Of a stretch of DNA of 64,000 bases, positions 50,155-64,000 are shown in pieces. How positions within the stretch are numbered: the stretch's first letter is position 1; each line of letters starts with the position of its first letter. The notes under the pieces are model-generated. The model did not search any database. It worked only from the letters and a program-made list of their open reading frames with translations, and had not been told where the DNA came from. The DNA is from Mesorhizobium sp. AR02 (lineage in GTDB: Bacteria > Pseudomonadota > Alphaproteobacteria > Rhizobiales > Rhizobiaceae). Location: assembly GCF_024746835.1 (NCBI RefSeq), contig NZ_CP080531.1, forward strand, positions 5,228,001-5,292,000, read 5' to 3'. The translations under genes were made by a program, and so were the position numbers.

Positions 50155-52041
50155 TCAGCCCTTCGAGATACCGCGCGCGATCAGCCGGGCCAGACGCTGC
50201 GAAAACGCCCTGGCGTCCGCCGGCTTGTCGCCGTCGAGCACGCGCGCCTCGTCGTAGAGGAGGTGGGCGGCGTCATCCTTGAAGGCTTGGTCCTCTTCGC
50301 CAAGGCCGGCCAGCGCCAGCACGCGTTCGTGGCGCGGGTTGATTTCGAGGATCGGCTTCGCTGCCTTGTCGAGGCGGCCGGCGGCATTCATCAGCCGCTC
50401 GAACTGCCGGTCGGGACCATGCTCGGGTGCGACCAGGCAGACGGCACTTTCGGTCAGGCGGTCGGAGGCCTTCACGTCCGAGACGGCGTCCCCGAGTGCG
50501 GCCTTGACGAAAGCCAGGAAACCGTCGACCTCAGGCGTCGCCACCGTCTCCGGCTTCTTGGCGTCGTCGAGCAGCGGGATGTCAGACAGTTCGGCCACGC
50601 CTTGCGTGACCGATTTGAACGGCTTGCCGTCGAAGTCCGGCGCCATTGTCACCCAGAAACTGTCGACCGGGTCGGTCAAGAGCAGTACCTCGATGCCGCG
50701 CGCCTTGAAACCTTCGAGCTGCGGCGAGGCTTCGAGCCGGGCGCGGTCGTCGCCGGCCATGAAGAAGATCGCCTTCTGGCCCTCCTTCATCGCGGCGACA
50801 TAGTCGGCGAGGCCGCGCCAGCCTTCACCTGATGTGGTCGAGTGGAAGCGGGCGAGCTTCAGCAATTGCTCGCGCCGCTCATGGTCCTCGTAGAGCCCTT
50901 CCTTGAGGACGACGCCGAAATTGCCCCAGATATTCGCATAGGCCTCGGCATCGCTTTCCGCCAGCTTGACGAGGTCGCCAAGCACGCGGTTGGTCAGGCC
51001 CTTGCGGATCGAGGCCAGCAGCGGGCTTTCCTGGATCATTTCGCGCGAGACGTTGAGCGGCAGGTCGGCGGAATCGACCAGCCCGCGCACGAAGCGCAAA
51101 TAGCGCGGCAGAAGGTCGGCCTCGTCGGTGATGAAGACTCGGCGCACATAGAGCTTCATGCGGCCCTTGCGGTCCTGGTCGAACAGATCGAACGGACGTG
51201 AGCCGGGCACGAAGGCAAGCACGGAGTATTCCTGCCGGCCCTCGGCGCGGAAATGGATGGTGGCGGCGGGTTCATCATACTGGCCGGCGACGCTACGGTA
51301 GAAGTCGGTGTATTCCTCGGGCTTGATCTCGCTCTTCGGCCGGACCCAAAGTGCCGTGCCGTCGGCAATGTCGCGCGCCTCGGCGCCGGGTTTTTCGATG
51401 AGCGTGATCGGCACCGGCACATGGCCCGACTGCGACTTGGCCAGTTGCTCGAGCCGGTAGGATCCGGTGTAGGAGACGGCGTCGTCCATGAGATGCAGCA
51501 CGACGCGGGTGCCGCGCCGCGGTGCGGCTTCGAGCGGGGCGGGCGCGATCTCGTAGGAACCCTTGCCGTCGGAGGACCAGCGCCAGGCCTCTTCGCTTCC
51601 GGCCAGGCGGCTGATGACGTCAACCCTGTCGGCGACCATGAAGGCGGAGTAGAAGCCGACGCCGAACTGGCCGATGAGCTGCGTGTCTTCTGTGCCTGCA
51701 CCGGCGCGCTCGATGAAGGCGCGCGTGCCCGAACGGGCGATCGTGCCCAGCGCCTCGGCCATGTCGTCGCGGCTCATGCCGATGCCGTTGTCCTCGACGA
51801 TGATCTCTTTGTTGTCCGCATCAGCCGAAATCGAGATGCGCGGCTTGGGGTCGTCGCCCAGCAATTCGGGATGGCTGACGGCCTCGAAGCGCAGCTTTTC
51901 GCAAGCATCGGCGGCGTTGGAAATCAGCTCGCGCAGGAAGACGTCCTTGTCGGAATAGACCGAATGCACCATCATGTGCAGCAGCCGCGAAACATCCGCC
52001 TCGAACGCCCTGGTTTCCGTCGCTTTCGTATCCGTCGTCAT
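50155..52041 (-). CDS. htpG: Chaperone HtpG (Hsp90)
   Basis: The 628-residue protein is a full-length bacterial Hsp90. The N-terminal GHKL ATPase has FLRELISNAADACEKLRFEA (catalytic Glu, Mg-binding Asn), VEDNGIGM and GQFGVGFYSAF. The middle domain has LYVRRVFITDEADLLPRYLRFVRGLVDS with the RVFI/LNVSREM patterns. The C-terminal dimerisation domain runs to ARLIARGIS. It is cytosolic and helps fold client proteins under stress. Monocistronic. Confidence 0.97.
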   Translation of the reverse strand: MTTDTKATETRAFEADVSRLLHMMVHSVYSDKDVFLRELISNAADACEKLRFEAVSHPELLGDDPKPRISISADADNKEIIVEDNGIGMSRDDMAEALGTIARSGTRAFIERAGAGTEDTQLIGQFGVGFYSAFMVADRVDVISRLAGSEEAWRWSSDGKGSYEIAPAPLEAAPRRGTRVVLHLMDDAVSYTGSYRLEQLAKSQSGHVPVPITLIEKPGAEARDIADGTALWVRPKSEIKPEEYTDFYRSVAGQYDEPAATIHFRAEGRQEYSVLAFVPGSRPFDLFDQDRKGRMKLYVRRVFITDEADLLPRYLRFVRGLVDSADLPLNVSREMIQESPLLASIRKGLTNRVLGDLVKLAESDAEAYANIWGNFGVVLKEGLYEDHERREQLLKLARFHSTTSGEGWRGLADYVAAMKEGQKAIFFMAGDDRARLEASPQLEGFKARGIEVLLLTDPVDSFWVTMAPDFDGKPFKSVTQGVAELSDIPLLDDAKKPETVATPEVDGFLAFVKAALGDAVSDVKASDRLTESAVCLVAPEHGPDRQFERLMNAAGRLDKAAKPILEINPRHERVLALAGLGEEDQAFKDDAAHLLYDEARVLDGDKPADARAFSQRLARLIARGISKG

Positions 52042-55050: not shown

Positions 55051-55060
55051 CTGGATTGCC

Positions 55061-55945
55061 CTACTTCCCCGCCATGTGATCCGCCAGCGTCTGCGCTTGA
55101 GCCAGCAGCGCGGGGAAGGCCGCATCCGCCGGCAGGCTCTTGCCCAGGCAGGCGCGGAAGTCGTTGTCGCCTTTCGTCCAGGCGGCGTTGGCGGCATCGG
55201 ATGTGTTTTCGTCGCTGTCGTCGGTGGCCTGCTTGGCCAGTTTCTGGGCGGCGGCGTCGGCGGCGGTCCACACGGCGTCGCAGGCGGCGATCTTCGGGAT
55301 GGCCGGTGCCGCGGGCGCTTCGGCGATCAGGACGCTGATGCCCTTGACGACCGTGACGACGACCTTCTGGTCGTAGTTCGGCCCGACATCCTGCGCCCAG
55401 CCGCCGAGCCGGGCGATCGCCATGTCGGCGCCGTCAGGCTTCTTCAGCGCAAAATCGAGCGTACTGGTGAAGGCGGCGTCGCTGCCGATGGCCTGGGTGT
55501 AGAAGGCATCGAGCTTCAGCGCCGCGTCGACGCTGGTGGGCAGTTTGAGATCGGCGTCCGTCTCGGCGGCGCGCGACTTGAGCCAGCGCTCGACCAGACC
55601 GCGCGTCGATGCCACGATGCTGGGGCCATCCTCGGTGCCGTGGCGCAGTCCGTCCAGCATGCCGAAGCCGACATCGGAGGAACTGAGGCTTTCGATATTG
55701 ATCGTGCCGGCCGCCGGAAAATCCTTGACGGTGAAGGGGCCAAGTAGGGTGGTGAGACGCTTTTCGAGATCGGCGCGCGCCTTTTCATTGGCCGCATCGA
55801 GCGTTTCCACCGGAGTGTTCGCACTCTCCATCGCCGCGATGGCCGCAATCGCCTTGTCGCGCGCGGCGATGTAATCGTCCTCGGGTGTGGCGGCAAAAGC
55901 CGCACTGCTCGCGAGTGCAAACATGACCGTCCAGACCAACCGCAT
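55061..55945 (-). CDS. Exported protein of unknown function
   Basis: A 294-residue periplasmic protein with signal peptide MRLVWTVMFALASSAAFA. The mature part is mostly helical and Ala-rich (YIAARDKAIAAIAAMESAN, NEKARADLEKRLTTLLG), has a VGPNYDQKVVVTVVKGISVLIAEAP core and two C-terminal cysteines (IAACDAVW, FRACLGKS). I do not recognise a named family. Its end is ten bases from the right end of the IS4 element, so the IS probably landed in the 3' flank without damage to the frame. Confidence 0.68.
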   Translation of the reverse strand: MRLVWTVMFALASSAAFAATPEDDYIAARDKAIAAIAAMESANTPVETLDAANEKARADLEKRLTTLLGPFTVKDFPAAGTINIESLSSSDVGFGMLDGLRHGTEDGPSIVASTRGLVERWLKSRAAETDADLKLPTSVDAALKLDAFYTQAIGSDAAFTSTLDFALKKPDGADMAIARLGGWAQDVGPNYDQKVVVTVVKGISVLIAEAPAAPAIPKIAACDAVWTAADAAAQKLAKQATDDSDENTSDAANAAWTKGDNDFRACLGKSLPADAAFPALLAQAQTLADHMAGK

Positions 55946-56290
55946 GACAGAACCTTTCTTCGTGGCGGATCAACAGGTCAGGCAGCCATCGGGCAGCTTT
56001 GCGGCTATTGCGCGGCAGGAAACGTCGAGGCGAAACATCCTGATCGGGGAGGGACAGCAAGCGCCGCCATTAACCATCAGTTAACTATCCGATCGCCTTT
56101 GACTCAAATTTGATGGATACTGTTTCTGGGCCAAACGAGGCTGCTCGAGCGGCTGGAGAAGACAGCAATTATAAGCCTGGCGCGCAGCATTCGTTGGTGT
56201 GCTGCAGTCCGGATTAAAGAAAGAAGCGACGGACCACCGTCGCCTTGCGGGAGGCGTCAGCATCACTCTTTGATGAGGATCGCCAGAATA

Positions 56291-56572
56291 ATGAAGATCG
56301 AAGATGCGGTTACTGCTGTAACAGCCGAGGCCAGCGCTCTGTTGTCGTGTCTCGGCCAGCCCGTCGTCGCCTATCACGTCACGGCAATCATGCGAGAGGC
56401 CGACCTGGAACACGCCCGGCAGATGCAGCTCGCCCTGATGCGGCGAAGCATCGAGGCGCTCGTCGATGACGGCCTGGAGGACGTGGCCGCTGAGCGGTTT
56501 GCGTCGCAGTTCGATGGGCGAGTTGGATCGACGTGGAGACTGCTGCACGCTTCGGATGGCGTGGCGCACTGA
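56291..56572 (+). CDS. Small helical orphan protein, duplicated locus
   Basis: A 93-residue protein (MKIEDAVTAVTAEASALLSC to WRLLHASDGVAH), probably cytoplasmic and helical, with HARQMQLALMRRSIEALVDDGLEDVAAERF in its middle. I know no function. The 3' two-thirds and ~50 bp beyond are repeated at 58,345-58,549. Another ATG lies seven codons upstream (MMRIARI). It begins the accessory stretch that leads to the retron. Confidence 0.58.
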   Translation: MKIEDAVTAVTAEASALLSCLGQPVVAYHVTAIMREADLEHARQMQLALMRRSIEALVDDGLEDVAAERFASQFDGRVGSTWRLLHASDGVAH

Positions 56573-56624
56573 CCTCGGCCAGACGGGCCTCGATCGAGCT
56601 CTGATTGTCCGTGTTGCCAATGGC
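56415..56624. repeat. ~205-bp direct repeat, left copy
   Basis: From GGCAGATGCAGCTCGCCCTG to GTGTTGCCAATGGC, about 85% identical to 58,345-58,549. The pair brackets ~1.7 kb with three small orphan genes, ending 135 bp before the retron RNA. Confidence 0.85.
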
Positions 56625-57077
56625 GGATCAATCAAGTCGGCTCCCGCCGGCTGCGTGCGAGAAGCCGTTTCAGGAAATATGAAAATCCCAAGGCAAGTCG
56701 CGGACGCCTGGCGCCCCCTATCAGCGCCCTGAGGAGGGCGTGTCTTGCCAAAGTCCGAAAGGGAGGCCTGCTCAACGTTCCATAGCGAGCGCATGAAATC
56801 CAAGGAGCAGAAGGGCGGAAAGTGCGTCGCTGGCTAGGTCGGTCACGGTTTTGATAGATTGAGCTGGGAACCGTCCCGATTTGACATCCTCTTTCAGCAA
56901 CCCGTGGCCATCTGTCCCTCCCATGAAATCGCTGAATCGTATTGCTCTCGGCCGCCTTTGAAACCCTGTCGGCGATATCGTCGGCGATTATAGGATCGTC
57001 GCAAAAATGATGTCTCGTGACACCCGACGCCAAAAATAGAGCATGGTCTGTGCGGCCTCTGGCCTTTGGGAGGTTCA
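56573..57077 (+). other. Intergenic stretch without a convincing gene
   Basis: Only the tail of the direct repeat (to 56,624) is recognisable. Open frames on the minus strand are long but Arg/Ser-rich, without ribosome sites, and look like shadows or decayed DNA. Confidence 0.4.
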
Positions 57078-57383
57078 TCACCATCTCTCGCGATACGGTT
57101 TCTGTCGTTCGGATGAGTGCAATTTTCGGTGGGCCGTTACGGTGTCGATCTCGACGATGACTCGAGCGCTAATCTTGACAGTTATCTTACCGGCCTCATC
57201 ATCGATGCGCGTTACGTGCCCCGTTATCGCCACCTTGTCGCCAGGCTTCGCTTTCCGCGGAGGCTCAATGGCAAATGGGAGGCTGTGGCTTGGAATGCTC
57301 ACGCACGCTCGGCCACTCCGACGAACCATCAGGATAGTCGCCGTCAGTGCCACCTCATCGCCGATATCTATGCTCCGTCCCAT
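57078..57383 (-). CDS. Small OB-fold-like orphan protein
   Basis: A 101-residue protein with beta-rich pattern: MGRSIDIGDEVALTATILMVRR, then SLPFAIEPPRKAKPGDKVAITGHVTRIDDEAGKITVKI. Two similar halves (IGDEVALTATIL and PGDKVAITGHVT) suggest an OB-like or SH3-like barrel, which is inference. GGAA lies eleven bases before the ATG. It is an orphan gene in the segment bracketed by the direct repeats. Confidence 0.58.
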   Translation of the reverse strand: MGRSIDIGDEVALTATILMVRRSGRACVSIPSHSLPFAIEPPRKAKPGDKVAITGHVTRIDDEAGKITVKISARVIVEIDTVTAHRKLHSSERQKPYRERW

Positions 57384-57494
57384 GCTTAGATTCCGGCGCT
57401 GATGATGAGTTAATCAATCACTGAACCCCGTTCTGCGTCAGGCGGGCGGGCGTCGAGAGGCGTCGGAGACCAAATACATTCCGATGGCAGACCG

Positions 57495-57812
57495 CTATAT
57501 CCATCTGCTTATACGAGTGCCCGCCTGCTGGAGGAACCGACCGAGCTCCCTGGCTCTTAATGCATCTGCTATTTGGCTGATCTTTCTGATCGCCTTATGG
57601 TCGTTAGATGCTGTCCGCGCCAACGGCGGACAGCGCAGCCCTAGGCGCATGCGTTGTGTGTTCGCGAAGGCAATCGCATCGCGCTCACGCCTAAATTGGT
57701 GGAAAGTTTCCTGGTCGTTCTCGCATACGCGGACAAACCAACCACCAAAACCCTCCGACAGCTCCACGGAGGTTTCGGGGCAATCGCTATCATACTGAGG
57801 GTGAACAGGCAT
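57495..57812 (-). CDS. Small orphan protein of unknown function
   Basis: A 105-residue protein: MPVHPQYDSDCPETSVELSEGF at the start, WFVRVCENDQETFHQFRRERDAIAFANTQRMRLG in the middle. The FxxERDAxxFAxxQRxRLG pattern resembles small rhizobial proteins with a single alpha/beta unit, but I know no function. AGGAAGCGCC gives the ribosome site. A second orphan gene on the same strand follows 111 bp on. Confidence 0.6.
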   Translation of the reverse strand: MPVHPQYDSDCPETSVELSEGFGGWFVRVCENDQETFHQFRRERDAIAFANTQRMRLGLRCPPLARTASNDHKAIRKISQIADALRARELGRFLQQAGTRISRWI

Positions 57813-58076
57813 GGCGCTTCCTGCATCGCAGCCGAAACGACGTCCCATCAAAAATAACCGTCAACAATGAATATGCTGTGACAGGCACAACGGATAATGC
57901 GCGAACGGGCTCTGGATCCACGTCCAGGCCCACGCTTGGACGGCACTGAGGGCGAAGCGACCGGCTACGCGAAGGGTCAACGGGGGATTTTCACCCAGGC
58001 GAAATTTCAACCTAAGCCAGCTTGTATGTGTCGAAAAGTTGCACGATTGTCGGTTGTTCGATGATGTGGGTATCCG

Positions 58077-58274
58077 ATGAAGCGTAAGGACAGGGCACGG
58101 CCTTTCGTGCCAACTGAGATCCACGTTAGCACCGTCGAGGATGACAGGGGTACGCTCGGTATCCTCTCGATCCAGACGACCGAGGGCATGGTTGAGATCG
58201 CGATTGATCGCCAAGCCGCCGACGCGATCGTGAATGCCATCGGCGCAATCCGGACGAAGCTGGACCAGAGCTAA
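58077..58274 (+). CDS. Small orphan protein upstream of the retron
   Basis: A 65-residue protein (MKRKDRARPFVPTEIHVST through AADAIVNAIGAIRTKLDQS): basic head, two or three strands (GTLGILSIQTTEGMVEIAI) and a C-terminal helix. No signal or membrane segment. Codon use is protein-like; no function is known to me. It points toward the retron, which starts 410 bp downstream, but the repeat copy lies between them. Confidence 0.5.
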   Translation: MKRKDRARPFVPTEIHVSTVEDDRGTLGILSIQTTEGMVEIAIDRQAADAIVNAIGAIRTKLDQS

Positions 58275-58344
58275 GAAAGCAGGCGGGGCCAAGAGGTAGC
58301 GGGAACATATCGAAAGAAATCGCACCGTCCTGTGTTCTGCCAAC

Positions 58345-58503
58345 CCGCGGCAGATGCAACTCGCCCTGATGCGGCGAAGCATCGAGGCGCTTGTCGATGA
58401 CGGGCTGGAGGATGTGGCCGCGGAGCATTTCGCCTCGCAGTTCCATGGTCGTCTCGGCTCGGCCTGGAGGCTACTGCACGCATCCGACGGAGTGGCGCAC
58501 TGA
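58345..58503 (+). pseudogene. Truncated copy of the 93-residue orphan gene
   Basis: An in-frame remnant from MQLALMRRSIEALVDDGLEDVAAEHF to LHASDGVAH and TGA, matching the last ~50 residues of the gene at 56,291-56,572. The N-terminal third is missing. Similarity continues to 58,549, past the stop, so this is a DNA-level duplication. Confidence 0.82.
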
Positions 58504-58684
58504 TCTCGGCCAAACCGTCGTCGATCGAGTTGTCCGTGTTGCCAATGGCATGCCGTCTTGCGGACAACATGTTCACCGCAATTGAATACATTCTGGCTAG
58601 TCGATTCGTCGACTGGTAGCAAACGCCTGTTGATAAGCAGGGATCTACCCTTGCATCAGAAATCCCGGTTTGCTCAATCAGTAT

Positions 58685-58829
58685 TGGCTTGCGGATAGAT
58701 TTTTCTGTGGGGGTTCTTCACAGGTGAAACCAACACGGCCTTAGTGCTGCCCGAAGAGCGACGACGAGAAGCAGCATTATAACGGTATAATGGCAATACG
58801 CGAAATCGCGTAGGAGTATCCGCAAGCCA
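58685..58829 (+). ncRNA. Retron msr-msd RNA
   Basis: A 145-nt element bounded by perfect 13-bp inverted repeats: a1 TGGCTTGCGGATA (58,685-58,697) and a2 TATCCGCAAGCCA (58,817-58,829). The G right after a1 (58,698) fits the branching guanosine. The msr part holds the hairpin CTGTG-N9-CACAG (58,705-58,723). The msd part holds a long stem (TGCTGC 58,745-58,750 with GCAGCA 58,771-58,776, extendable by three pairs) and TACGCG-AAAT-CGCGTA (58,797-58,812). It ends four bases before the RT start codon. This layout is that of known retrons, where the RNA primes and templates msDNA. Confidence 0.88.
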
Positions 58830-58833
58830 CCCA

Positions 58834-60597
58834 ATGAACATCGTATCGCTGAAGCTTGAGCAATACCGAAAGGCAACCAGCCTAATTGATATCGCTAATA
58901 TTCTGGCGTTGGAGCCGGCGCATATCTCTTTCGCGCTGTACAAGCTCGACAAGCCCGGCTTTGCGGCGAAATATACCGAGTTCAATGTCGCCAAGAAGGC
59001 TGGTGGGGTACGCACTATTAAGGCGCCCCACAAAGCCCTGAAGGCAGTCCAGAAACGGCTGGCTCAAGATCTATTGATGATAGAGGAACAGCTCGAAACG
59101 ACGCGGGTCAAAAAATCCGACTGCATCCTCGCGCACGGCTTCAAGAAAAAGCTTTCCATCATGACCAATGGTGAGAACCATCGCCATCGCCGGTACGTCT
59201 TCAATATCGATCTGAAGGACTTCTTCCCAACGATTAATTTTGGCCGAGTACGCGGCTTCTTCATGAAGCATGAGGCTTTCGAATTGCATAAATCTGTCGC
59301 AACCCTCCTCGCGCAGATTGCTTGCCACAACAACCAACTGCCTCAGGGTAGTCCCTGCTCGCCGGTAATCTCCAATCTCATTGCAAGCGTTCTCGATATC
59401 AGGCTCAACGAATTGGCCCATCGATACAATTGCACTTACACGCGGTACGCCGACGACATCACGTTCTCGACCAGCGAACGGAATTTCCCCACCGTGATAG
59501 GTCGGCGCGATGTCGAGAGCATCAACCTGTGGGAGGCAGGACCGAGGCTGCTGAAGGCCATTCAGCGTGCGGGATTCGAACTGAACCCGACTAAGACACG
59601 TATGCAGCACAGCTATTCCCGACAGGAAGTGACCGGGGTAGTCGTCAACCAGAAGGTGAATATCGCTGCGGACTACTACGCCGAAGTCGCCGCCATGTGT
59701 CATCACCTCTTCATGGATGGCGAGTGCTTTACCAAGATATCAGGCGTGAAGCAGCCTTTTCCCATCAAGAAGCTGCGGGGGCGGCTGGCCTACATCTATC
59801 AAGTCCGCGGTAAGGGCCCAAAAATCGCACAAAATGGCGAGGACGGCGAGGCGAAAGGTGCCCAGAGATTTTGGGCCAGCTTCAATCTGTTCGAGCGTTT
59901 CCTGAACTACGCCGATCTGTACGCGGTCGACCGTCCTCTCATCCTGTGCGAGGGCGTTACGGACAATATCTACATCAAGTCAGCGATTCAGGCTCTCGCC
60001 ACTGCTTATCCTACCCTCACCAACCCGGCCGGGGATCTTAAGGTCAAGCTATTCAAGTACACCAAAACCTCGACGGCGGTGCAGCAGTTGGGCGGAGGTA
60101 GCGGGGAACTCCTCAAGCTCATCACGAAATACCATCTGCGCACGAAGAAATTTAAAGCGGGCGGCAAGCATCCCCTTGTCGTAATCGTGGATTTCGACGA
60201 AGGGTCGAAAACCATCTTCAAGGAGGTCGAGAAAAAGACCGGCAAGAAGATTGGCACCCAGCCGTGGTTTCACTGGGACAAAAATCTCTACATCGTCCCG
60301 ATTCCGAAAGTAGGCGGGGTCGATACGCCGATTGAACGCCTATTCCCCCAAGCACTTCTCGACGAGCCTTTCGACGGAAAGACCTTCGATATAACAAACT
60401 CCGAAAAGGATGGGTCTAAGTTCTTTGGGAAGAAGGTTTTTGCAACAAAAGTTGTCGCTGCCAACAAAGGTACGATCAACTTCAATGGTTTCGACCCTCT
60501 CCTGGCCGCCGTTGTTGAAGTGATTGAACATCACAAGACGAAAATGGGATTGCCCCCCAGAGCAGCCGTTGGGCCAGTGGCTGCTGCTGCCCCTTAG
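58834..60597 (+). CDS. Retron reverse transcriptase fused to a TOPRIM domain
   Basis: The 587-residue protein has a retron RT (about 1-335): NIDLKDFFPTI with catalytic Asp126, NNQLPQGSPCSPVISNLI, the YADD site at 205-208, and the retron-specific VTG at 266-268. A C-terminal TOPRIM domain (about 365-560) follows: LILCEGVTDNIYI with Glu373 and VIVDFDEGS with Asp453/Asp455, as in OLD-type nucleases. The fusion resembles Ec67-type retrons, in which the TOPRIM part is the toxic effector held by msDNA and released on phage attack. The stop codon is formed by an IS630 insertion; without it the stop would be TAA in the same place, so the protein is complete. Confidence 0.92.
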   Translation: MNIVSLKLEQYRKATSLIDIANILALEPAHISFALYKLDKPGFAAKYTEFNVAKKAGGVRTIKAPHKALKAVQKRLAQDLLMIEEQLETTRVKKSDCILAHGFKKKLSIMTNGENHRHRRYVFNIDLKDFFPTINFGRVRGFFMKHEAFELHKSVATLLAQIACHNNQLPQGSPCSPVISNLIASVLDIRLNELAHRYNCTYTRYADDITFSTSERNFPTVIGRRDVESINLWEAGPRLLKAIQRAGFELNPTKTRMQHSYSRQEVTGVVVNQKVNIAADYYAEVAAMCHHLFMDGECFTKISGVKQPFPIKKLRGRLAYIYQVRGKGPKIAQNGEDGEAKGAQRFWASFNLFERFLNYADLYAVDRPLILCEGVTDNIYIKSAIQALATAYPTLTNPAGDLKVKLFKYTKTSTAVQQLGGGSGELLKLITKYHLRTKKFKAGGKHPLVVIVDFDEGSKTIFKEVEKKTGKKIGTQPWFHWDKNLYIVPIPKVGGVDTPIERLFPQALLDEPFDGKTFDITNSEKDGSKFFGKKVFATKVVAANKGTINFNGFDPLLAAVVEVIEHHKTKMGLPPRAAVGPVAAAAP

Positions 60598-61639
60598 AGC
60601 GGTTCGCGTTTTATCTGAATCGGGATTCCCAAGATTGAGCAAATCAGATTCGATGTTCTGACCGTTGGAGGTCGGGACAGATGGCGAAGCCTTATTCGAT
60701 GGATCTGCGAGAGCGGGCACTGGCTCGCCTTGAGGAAGGCGAGACGAGTCGCGAGGTGGCTGCGGCGCTGAAGGTGGCAGTGTCGAGCGTGATCAAGTGG
60801 GCGGCGCGCAAGCGTCGGTTGGGCAGTGCGGCCCCTGGCAAGATGGGCGGTCATCGGCCCTATCTGATCGATGGGGAGCACCGTGCTTTCGTCCTGAGCG
60901 AGGTCGAGCGAGATGCCAACATAACGCTTCATCAATTGACGGCGGCATTGGCGGAACGGGGTCTCATCATCCACCCTGCGAGCGTCGGTCGCTTCCTGCA
61001 TCGTGAGGGCAAGAGTTTTAAAAAAAACCATTCTGCCGGCCGAGCAGCTCAAGCCAAAGCTGATGCGCCGGCGGGCGCAATGGATGCGCTACCAGACCCG
61101 CATTGACCCTACTCGCCTGGTCTTCCTGGATGAAACATGGGTCAAGACCAACATGGCGCCATTGCGCGGCTGGGGTGTGCGCGGCAAGCGGCTGATGGCC
61201 CACGCGCCATATGGTCATTGGAAGACGATGACCTTCATCGCCGCGCTGCGGCATGATCGGGTGGAGGCGCCTTGGGTCATTGACGGACCCATCAATGCGC
61301 AGGCCTTCCGCGCCTATGTCGAAACCGAACTCATCAAAACACTGAAGCCGGGTGACATCGTCATTCTCGACAATCTCGGTTCTCACAAGGGCCAAGCCGT
61401 CCGCGATATCGTCAGGGCCGCTGGCGCAAGGCTCTTCTTCCTGCCGCCCTATAGCCCAGACCTCAATCCAATCGAGAAGCTGTTCGCCAAGCTCAAGCAC
61501 TGCATGCGGCGTGCCGCCAAACGAAGCATCCAGGCCGTACACAACGCCATCGCCAACACCCTTGACGACGTTACCCCAAACGAATGTAACAACTACATCG
61601 AAAGCGCAGGCTATAAGTCAACCTAAATGCGAACCGCTC
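60597..61639 (+). mobile_element. IS630-family insertion sequence in the retron stop codon
   Basis: The element has terminal inverted repeats GAGCGGTTCGC on both ends and is flanked by TA on each side (60,595-60,596 and 61,640-61,641), the TA target duplication of IS630/Tc1-mariner elements. Its first G completes the TAG that ends the retron RT gene. Length is ~1.04 kb with one transposase in two frames. Confidence 0.92.
60681..61626 (+). CDS. IS630-family transposase across a frame change at A8
   Basis: The first frame encodes the helix-turn-helix half (MAKPYSMDLRERALARLEEGETSREVAAAL to LHREGKSFKK). The second encodes the DDE half: TRLVFLDETWVKTNM (Asp), GDIVILDNLGSHKG (Asp) and YSPDLNPIEKLFAKLK (Glu). 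They meet at eight A's (61,020-61,027). One fewer A, or slippage in transcription, joins them as SFKKTILPAEQ. Overlapping frames joined by slippage at A runs are common in this family, so the IS may be active. The stop lies close to the right inverted repeat. Confidence 0.9.
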
Positions 61640-61761
61640 TAATATGTGGAATTGGCAGCGAGAGATTTGATGTCTCGAATAAGAGGTACGACGGAGTAGC
61701 TGGCAATCTCGACGTTGAAGGACTTCTCCGGCGACTCCTGGCCATGACAAGCCGCCGCCAA

Positions 61762-62736
61762 TCACCCCTTCTGCCTGGTCAACCGCTCCAGCGCATCCAC
61801 GATCAGGTCACAGAACTTGCGATGGTCGAGCTTCATCGCCACGGTGTGGCGGAAGTCGGTCTGCTCGCTCGCGGTGCCGCCGAAATGGTGCATGCCGCCC
61901 ATCTCTGCGAAATTGCAGACCGTCATGCCCTTGGTCCAGCGGCCGGCAATTTCGACGCGGATATCGGCCTTCTCGGTGGTGAAGACGCTTCCGTCGATCA
62001 TGGCCGCGACGCAGCAGGCGTCATGGATGGCAGGATACTCGATCTGCAGCAGGCCGCCATGCGTGGTCGCTATGAACTCCCAGATATCGAGGATGAACTT
62101 GGCCATCGGGCCGCCGACGGCGCGCACCCTGTCCTGTAGCTCCGGGGTGGCCAGCGCCTGGTGGGTGAGGTCGAGACCCACCATGGTGACGTCCCAATTC
62201 GCCCGGAACACCACGTCGGCGGCCTCCGGGTCGGCATAGACGTTGAACTCCGCCGCGGGCGTGATGTTGCCCCGCGTAAAACTTCCGCCCATGGCGACGA
62301 CCCGCTTCACCCGCTCGACGATGCATGGCTCCTTGCGCATGGCGAGGGCGATGTTGGTGTAGGGACCGACCGGAACCAGCGTGATCGTCTTCGGCTCATG
62401 CGCCATGACGGTGTCGATGATGAAATCGACGGCATGCCGCTTGTCGAGCTCGAACGAGGCGGGCGGCAGCACGGGGCCGTCGAGCCCGGTATCGCCGTGG
62501 ATCTCGACGGCCAGCACCTGATCGATGATGAGCGGGCCGGGAGAGCCCTTCGCCACTGGCACCTTGATGCCATAGGCAGTGCATACGGAAAGCGCATTGC
62601 GCGTGGTGTTCTCGACATTGTGGTTGCCCGAAACCGTGGTGATGCCGAGGAGGTCGATCTTCGGGTTGCCTGCCGCCAGCAGGATGGCGATCGCGTCGTC
62701 GTGTCCTGGGTCGCAGTCCAGGATGATCTTTTCCAT
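61762..62736 (-). CDS. Ribonucleoside hydrolase (IunH/Rih type)
   Basis: The 324-residue protein is an inosine-uridine-preferring-type nucleoside hydrolase. MEKIILDCDPGHDDAIAI has the Ca-binding Asp cluster (Asp8, Asp13, Asp14 region), TLVPVGPYTNIALA and the PAAEFNVYADPEAADVV block bind the ribose, and IHDACCVAAMI carries the late Asp-His pair. It cleaves nucleosides to base and ribose in salvage. AGGGAGGTGCCCACC precedes the ATG. No transport genes are adjacent. It is convergent with the IS630 element. Confidence 0.9.
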   Translation of the reverse strand: MEKIILDCDPGHDDAIAILLAAGNPKIDLLGITTVSGNHNVENTTRNALSVCTAYGIKVPVAKGSPGPLIIDQVLAVEIHGDTGLDGPVLPPASFELDKRHAVDFIIDTVMAHEPKTITLVPVGPYTNIALAMRKEPCIVERVKRVVAMGGSFTRGNITPAAEFNVYADPEAADVVFRANWDVTMVGLDLTHQALATPELQDRVRAVGGPMAKFILDIWEFIATTHGGLLQIEYPAIHDACCVAAMIDGSVFTTEKADIRVEIAGRWTKGMTVCNFAEMGGMHHFGGTASEQTDFRHTVAMKLDHRKFCDLIVDALERLTRQKG

Positions 62737-63154: not shown

Positions 63155-64000
63155 ATGGGGTGGAACGCCGTGCTATCCCTCATTTCTTCAATCCTCATGT
63201 TGCTGTTGGCGTCTCCGGCAAACAGTCAGCTGGCACCCGATGCGTCCGCGACTGCCGCAGTCAACGGCCGTTCGCCGGTCGCGGTTTCGGACCCCACGGA
63301 TATCGCGAAAGAAGCGGGCAAGGTGCAACCCGGCGCGGTCGGAACCGACATATTCAATCTGACGCTCAGTGAAGCACAGGCCCTCAAGGGCGCGCAAACG
63401 TTGCCCGGCGAGGATGAGCAGGCCTTGCGCCGCGAATTGGCCGCGGCACGGGCTGAACTGGCCAGGCAAGCGCAGGCCCTGAAAGAGCAGCAGCAAACAG
63501 ACGAAACGCTCACGCTCAATCTGGAGACGGCGCAGCGTGCCATCGAAAATTTCAGGGCGGAAGCCAGTCTCTGGGACAGCAAGAAAGGCGCGATGCCTGA
63601 AGCGCACCCCTCCACGGATGCCTCTCAGGCTGCTGCGAACCAGGCGCTTGATGAGGAGCGCCATAAGGGTGAGCTCCTGGGACAAGAACTCGCCACGGCT
63701 CGTCAAACGATCGATGCTCTCAAGACAGGCGCAAATCTGGCCGTAGCGGAGCAGGCCAAGGGCGTGAAGGACCGGCAAGTGGCCGACGCCGCTGCGAACC
63801 AGGCGCTTGATGAGGAGCGCCATAAGGGTGAGCTCCTGGAACAAGAACTCGCCACCGCTCGTCAAACGATCGATGCTCTCAAGACAGGCGCAAGTATGGC
63901 CGCGATGGAGCAGGCCAAGGCCGTGAAGGACCGGCAAGCGGCCGACGCCGCTGCAACGCAGGCGCTTGATGACGAACGCCATAAGGTTGAGCTCCTGGAA
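63155..64000 (+). CDS. Exported coiled-coil protein with 53-residue tandem repeats, N-terminal part
   Basis: The gene runs off the right edge; 282 residues are visible. A signal-like start (MGWNAVLSLISSILMLLLASPANS) is followed by a short spacer and then coiled coil from about residue 88 (EDEQALRRELAAARAELARQ). From 63,632 a 159-bp unit repeats exactly in phase. Each unit encodes AANQALDEERHKGELLEQEL, then ATARQTIDALKTGA and EQAKxVKDRQ; two full units and the start of a third are seen. It should form a long periplasmic or surface rod. What lies after the repeats is unknown. Confidence 0.78.
   Translation, partial: MGWNAVLSLISSILMLLLASPANSQLAPDASATAAVNGRSPVAVSDPTDIAKEAGKVQPGAVGTDIFNLTLSEAQALKGAQTLPGEDEQALRRELAAARAELARQAQALKEQQQTDETLTLNLETAQRAIENFRAEASLWDSKKGAMPEAHPSTDASQAAANQALDEERHKGELLGQELATARQTIDALKTGANLAVAEQAKGVKDRQVADAAANQALDEERHKGELLEQELATARQTIDALKTGASMAAMEQAKAVKDRQAADAAATQALDDERHKVELLE
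63632..64000. repeat. 159-bp in-frame tandem repeats
   Basis: Units begin at 63,632, 63,791 and 63,950, exactly 159 bp apart, with over 90% identity between the first two. They continue past the window edge. The opposite strand is open through them only because of the repeat composition. Confidence 0.9.

Follow-up and report, generated by a model that had tools for sequence, protein, structure and literature searches.

A complete Ec67-family retron in Mesorhizobium and msd-only pieces that look like inserted fragments of its clade's msDNA

The RT-TOPRIM protein and its retron RNA

The window analyzed here is a stretch of 64,000 nt from Mesorhizobium sp. AR02, whose genome comprises 8.9 Mb in 4 contigs. 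It contains the gene of an RT-TOPRIM fusion protein, the parts of a retron RNA directly before that gene, and an IS630-family element that lies outside the retron (Table 1). A sequence-only reading of this DNA had proposed an Ec67-kind fusion of a retron RT (YADD, VTG) with a TOPRIM domain (Glu373, Asp453, and Asp455), and had assigned such fusions to a TOPRIM-fusion subtype of type I. All of these residues are present in the ORF (YADD at 205-208, VTG at 266-268), and the profile searches bear out both the family and the subtype: the PADLOC profile RT-Toprim_I-C matches the 587-aa ORF with an E-value of 1.6e-207, the NCBIfam model NF038237 (retron_Ec67_fus) gives 646.7 bits against a cut-off of 450, and the solved retron Ec67 chain (PDB 9i2f) matches over residues 6-570 (E 2.3e-102). 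The last 258 residues, taken alone, match the TOPRIM half of the solved Ec67 (9i2f) in sequence at 9.4e-25, and RVT_1 is the sole Pfam family above its cut-off. In the window protein, the retron RT motif NAxxH takes the form NGENH (112-116), whose N112 and H116 do not vary across 29 rows. The catalytic residues are invariant among the aligned homologues, with Y205, D207, D208, E373, G374, D377, D453, D455, and E501 identical in 122 out of 122. Furthermore, F50 (Eco2 F46) is kept in 121/122 and H290 (Eco2 H281) in 81/122 of the homologues. Two Eco2 residues are not conserved in the window protein: the position of S513 is variable among homologues and is P499 here, and the trimer residue R332 falls in a gappy loop, without a conserved counterpart. 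The catalytic K562 of PMC12405507 could not be placed, because residue 562 of the aligned chain is Asp.

Table 1. Features of the retron locus in the window, and msd-only pieces in three other Mesorhizobium genomes.
Feature	Position	Strand	Basis
a1 repeat, 5' arm of the a1/a2 stem	58685..58697	+	Perfect 13-bp complement of a2
Branch G, predicted priming 2'-OH	58698	+	Directly 3' of a1; equivalent of Eco2 rG15
msr stem-loop	58705..58723	+	7 consensus pairs with compensatory changes
msd, template of the predicted ~79-nt msDNA	58737..58815	+	Eco2 numbering and alignment
Hairpin at the msDNA 5' end	58797..58812	+	Present in the 4 nearest RNAs; both bases of one pair changed
a2 repeat	58817..58829	+	Perfect 13-bp complement of a1
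RT-TOPRIM fusion, 587 aa	58834..60597	+	PADLOC, NCBIfam, PDB 9i2f, conserved residues
IS630-family element, outside the retron	60597..61639	+	End sequences; transposase profile NF033545
msd-only piece in genome G447	L157 1501-1558 (C34:388702-388759)		93% to the window msd, E 5.1e-18 for one genome
msd-only piece in genome G407	L190 1501-1561 (C116)		88% over 64 columns to the L012 msd, E 2.6e-14
msd-only piece in genome G396	L191 1501-1529 (C96)		97% over 29 to the L012 msd, E 9.7e-7

The RNA parts named by the sequence-only reading, namely perfect 13-bp a1/a2 repeats, a G in the branching position, an msr hairpin, and an RNA end four bases before the RT start, were all recovered at the expected places. 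A perfect repeat of 13 bp was reached by none of 2000 dinucleotide shuffles of the 230 nt upstream of the gene, in which the longest perfect repeat was 12 bp, seen once; chance is thus excluded for a1/a2. G58698 follows a1 directly, and a gap of four bases separates the end of a2 from the RT-TOPRIM start codon (ATG, 58834). When folded, the 154-nt RNA (58680-58833) has a z-score of -3.7 with 0 out of 200 shuffles as good, and the msDNA strand alone (58731-58815) folds slightly better than its shuffles (z -1.74; 9 out of 200 as good). We deduced the ends of the msDNA by means of Eco2 numbering (rG52 plus a 67-nt msd), checked on the Eco2-like locus L117, together with the RNA alignment; the predicted msDNA would have its 5' T opposite A58815 and its 3' end opposite about 58735-58738. 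Across the 13 nearest RNAs, just 54.5% of cells in the 5'-terminal helix of the msDNA are paired, which confines this hairpin to the near clade. An Rfam scan of 58000-61500 gave no match, and since Rfam is also blank for the Ec67-like locus L117, its blank on the window is uninformative.

Ec67/Eco2 of E. coli (NF038237; RT-Toprim_I-C; PDB 9i2f, 9lm3) shares with the window retron a single RT-TOPRIM gene with the same catalytic residues and, just upstream of the gene, the a1/a2 repeats, a branch G, one msr hairpin, and an msd. However, the two proteins are distant (346 bits by phmmer over 565 residues), a1 ends in GGATA in the window and in GGCA in Ec67/Eco2, and the msd is about 79 nt long with an extra 5' hairpin in the window compared with 67 nt in Eco2.

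Covariation among homologous loci and spread within the genus

At least 5592 of the 7998 scored candidates, among the matches listed, pass E 0.001, and many of them share the RT part only. Several of the nearest relatives are from Mesorhizobium and are already named 'retron Ec67 family' by NCBI. Our genome scan returned 251 relatives, from which 80 loci were kept, and the viral scan returned 41. We screened the upstream sequences with a strict rule (a perfect repeat of at least 8 bp, an A before and a G after, a loop of 90-130 nt, and a place near the gene) and found the same upstream layout in 97 out of 125 homologous loci, compared with 3 out of 1000 for shuffles of the same sequences, the branch G being part of the rule by which the 97 were selected. 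The 125 loci are those with enough upstream sequence and include the window itself and repeated records; L121 (upstream too short) and the own-genome copy L001 were left out of the counts. For the 28 loci that fail the strict rule, a looser rule, which has no shuffle control, gives a candidate in 20 and none in 8.

The 97 positive loci contain 83 different RNAs. The msr hairpin played no part in selecting these RNAs, and each of its 7 pairs is standard in 80-83 of the 83, with many compensatory changes. Pairs of a1/a2 outside the selected core also covary, so that the covariation in homologous loci on which the sequence-only reading had made its claim depend is present for a1/a2, and the hairpin that it had proposed for the msr covaries as well. 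Among the 13 nearest RNAs, 8 out of 25 pairs are changed on both sides, a number that 0 out of 500 shuffles reach, and in the msr hairpin this holds for 4 out of 6 pairs. Judged from its sequence, window 58685-60597 is a complete Ec67-family retron (PADLOC type I-C).

Conservation is higher in a1, a2, and msr than in the msd. At the loci L012, L013, and L014 of the Mesorhizobium clade, the protein (P0001-P0003) is 67-92% identical to that of the window and a1, msr, and a2 are the same, whereas the msds have diverged from the window msd in sequence and length. The msd had been described as unlike any known one: this stands with regard to plasmids and E. coli genomes, in which the window msd has no DNA match, but not with regard to L012, L013, and L014, whose msds can be aligned with it. 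Two exact-pattern scans of viral contigs did not find the window msd either, a comparison with phages gave nothing past a 25-nt match at E 0.7, and the msds of L012, L013, and L014 have no match in plasmids. All four nearest RNAs share the heptamer CGACGAG (window 58760-58766) within an otherwise variable msd.

We placed the window protein in a 55-row tree, where it belongs to a fully supported clade of 12 members from Mesorhizobium, Aliihoeflea, and Paenochrobactrum. Three further Mesorhizobium proteins, L016, L017, and L025, branch outside this clade, which suggests repeated transfer. An RT-TOPRIM match at E <= 1e-50 is found in 8 out of 146 genus genomes, the own genome counted, and one of these (G523) has a partial match only (39%).

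The genomic site

The retron lies in a variable Mesorhizobium site (window 55060-61762) that is near-empty in genomes G412, G413, and G421 and holds other cargo, of about 1-9 kb, in further Mesorhizobium genomes. In G412, the counterparts of window positions 58300 and 61761 lie four bases from each other, meaning that the retron-bearing stretch is absent. A direct repeat of 187 bp (56412-56598 and 58343-58529, 84% identical) covers the end of a 100-aa ORF, and its second copy lies just before the retron. Despite this repeat, we rejected a mobile element carrying the retron, as we found no integrase among the scanned proteins and no matching ends. We also dropped the idea of a defence island. 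PADLOC gave no match for 9 of 10 proteins around the retron and a weak TmtA match for the other (50155-52041), which we take to be HtpG. Of the cargo ORFs at the same site in other Mesorhizobium, 10 out of 43 were scanned, and the three that match models (PycC; mad2; mad3 and others) are presumably a general cyclase, an RNA methyltransferase, and an ABC ATPase. At the right end of the window (63629-64000), an ORF that runs off the window contains in-frame 159-bp tandem repeats.

Genes of the IS4 and ISAs1 families lie upstream of the retron, and the target of the IS630-family element is the TA of the RT-TOPRIM stop codon (TA at 60595-60596 and 61640-61641). Insertion in the stop codon, the other IS elements nearby, and the result of a consensus scan of 58400-58850, which found no promoter, would fit a decaying or silent retron whose msDNA is no longer made. 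However, the stop is kept at the same place: in-silico removal of the IS630 element gives TAA instead of TAG, which leaves the protein unchanged. Moreover, the C-terminus matches those of close relatives, the ORF is intact, the active-site residues are kept, and a1/a2 are perfect. We therefore regard decay or silence of the locus as quite improbable.

Proposed action of the retron

The scheme that we propose for the window retron is carried over from Eco2, which defends against phages. The msDNA of Eco2 is primed at rG15, the nuclease is kept inactive in a trimer of its RT-TOPRIM and msDNA, its TOPRIM part is an RNase dependent on active-site residues, and four phages that escape Eco2 carry a denB mutation (PMC12405507). 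A passage in PMC12956279 credits Pausch et al. (2025) with the finding that the TOPRIM cuts tRNA. By analogy, the RT of the window retron would prime on the 2'-OH of G58698 and copy the msd from A58815 to about G58737, giving an msDNA of about 79 nt, and the complex of msDNA, RNA, and protein would hold the fused TOPRIM nuclease inactive. Damage to the msDNA by a phage function, such as the DenB-like nuclease of the Eco2 case, would then free the TOPRIM, and the freed TOPRIM would cut RNA and stop phage growth at the cost of the cell. We infer all of these activities (msDNA synthesis, restraint, trigger, RNase action, and defence) from the likeness to Eco2. The effector might instead act on DNA, as do the TOPRIM domains of OLD and Gabija, which share the active-site layout (PMC12405507); since the nearest studied relative, Eco2, is an RNase (PMC12405507), action on DNA seems unlikely to us.

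msd-only pieces in genomes of the genus

When we searched the 146 genus genomes with the 145-nt RNA, five matched: the own genome, G441, G475, G395, and G447. The matches in G441, G475, and G395 lie directly before RT-TOPRIM genes of these genomes, and the match in G447 is limited to the part corresponding to window 58738-58796. No solo msr piece was found in this whole-RNA search of the 146 genomes. G447 has no RT-TOPRIM at E <= 0.001, with the same query that matched 8 genus genomes at E <= 1e-50. The G447 flanks match G516 and G515 up to query position 351 and again from 409, with zero bases between the two matches in these genomes, and the piece is missing from 10 out of 10 aligned sites (of 19 fetched sites that match the G447 flanks), with L172 aligning poorly on the right side. 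The uninterrupted flanks and these empty sites indicate that 56-58 bp came into G447. No target duplication is visible at this insertion, which lies about 13 nt before a 310-aa ORF (no Pfam match), and a 219-aa ORF on the other strand runs across the piece. Two genomes (L176 and L181) carry a doubled palindromic repeat of ~120 nt in almost the same intergenic position, immediately to the right of where the piece entered G447.

Genus-wide searches of the 146 genomes with an msd were made for the window and L012 msds only. The L012 msd matched its own genome (G441), G407, and G396. The G407 piece ends at L012 position 3981, the base opposite the deduced dT1 (the msDNA 5' end), and at the opposite end adjoins a truncated istB at GGCCA, which gives it a mixed history; no empty site was found for it, and G407 has no RT-TOPRIM at E <= 1e-50. 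For the G396 piece, a gap of ~30 nt marks an empty site at the matching place on plasmid MesoLj131c2 of Mesorhizobium sp. 131-3-5, a single site that is 74% alike and aligns with eight gap openings. G396 carries an RT-TOPRIM of another clade (46%, one internal stop). The window msd also gave short matches in 6 genus genomes (E 0.004-0.008) and two weak matches among 394 family genomes (E 1.8e-4 and 3.0e-4), and we dropped these 22-34-nt matches as chance because of their length and E-values. All 8 of them lie under an ORF of at least 120 aa, but the G447 piece does too, and overlap with an ORF is thus not discriminating.

The isolated msd-only pieces in three genomes suggest that fragments of the msDNA of this Mesorhizobium clade have occasionally been inserted into genomes, and from their sequence the three pieces look like partial msDNA copies. 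Other origins explain them less well. Decay of complete retrons in situ would mean that each piece has lost its neighbouring msr and RT gene, supposing these were once present. Yet for G447 and G396, relatives have sites from which only the piece is missing, the better conserved a1, a2, and msr are missing beside an msd piece that is 88-97% alike, and in the 10-kb stretches around the three pieces no other part of the 1.9-kb retron of either the window or L012 matches at E <= 0.01. We thus consider decay in place very improbable. Alternatively, the msd could hold a small mobile repeat of which the pieces are further copies: it is partly palindromic, and such elements insert cleanly. Against this, the window msd has one convincing copy besides the retron itself in the 146 genus genomes and no further convincing copy in the 394 family genomes, the extent differs between the pieces, and the G447 insertion shows no target duplication, all of which makes a mobile repeat an improbable source.

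The pieces could also have been captured from the chromosomal msd, that is, from retron DNA and not from msDNA. Relative to the deduced msDNA ends, the six piece ends are placed as follows: one is exact (G407), one is within 1-4 nt (G447, 3' side), four are inside, and none is past. Capture of retron DNA accommodates the four ends inside the msDNA, the msd sequence is identical in both sources, and other retron parts would have escaped a search in which the L012 query was the msd only. The G447 piece, however, came from the whole 145-nt RNA query, with which no solo msr piece appeared, no piece goes past the deduced msDNA end, and one end falls exactly on dT1 (G407) and another 1-4 nt from the deduced 3' end (G447). 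Capture of retron DNA is therefore conceivable but doubtful, and we retain the insertion of msDNA fragments as the better explanation of the pieces.

Discussion

We put at roughly 0.85 the probability that the locus is a complete Ec67 (Eco2)-family retron acting by an Eco2-like scheme, with fragments of msDNA being inserted into genomes on occasion. For the pieces, we lean towards a more specific proposal, namely that type I-C msDNA has repeatedly been built into Mesorhizobium genomes in single insertions of ~30 to 64 nt, probably as end-joining filler, leaving fossils of the true msDNA ends and of past retron carriage in genomes that are now retron-free. The joining of broken ends may be the route by which the pieces entered.

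To our knowledge, Nannocystis is the sole precedent for inserted msDNA copies. Lampson and Rice in 1997, and Lampson and co-workers in 2002, reportedly described repeated or partial copies of msDNA in Nannocystis exedens, msDNA-like sequence that lies away from an RT gene, with retrotransposition as a possible origin. Another natural case of inserted msDNA was not found in the literature searched. According to the review PMC6868368, the repeats of retron Ne160 of the myxobacterium Nannocystis exedens consist of msr and msd. The Nannocystis case, as given there, resembles the stray pieces in that msDNA-like sequence lies away from the RT gene, and it differs from Mesorhizobium, where the pieces are msd-only, occur in three genomes, belong to an RT-TOPRIM clade, and in two instances have an empty site. 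The same review gives msDNA in 10 out of 63 rhizobia isolates, so that retrons in rhizobia have long been known.

The window retron is a rhizobial addition to a family for whose E. coli member structures have been solved, and in our view the stray msd pieces matter more than the retron itself. If our reading of them is true, the pieces would be natural evidence that the msDNA of this clade is made, and they would help to fix the ends of that msDNA. It would also mean that DNA made by a defence system can find its way into genomes, and the natural integration of msDNA would thereby become testable.
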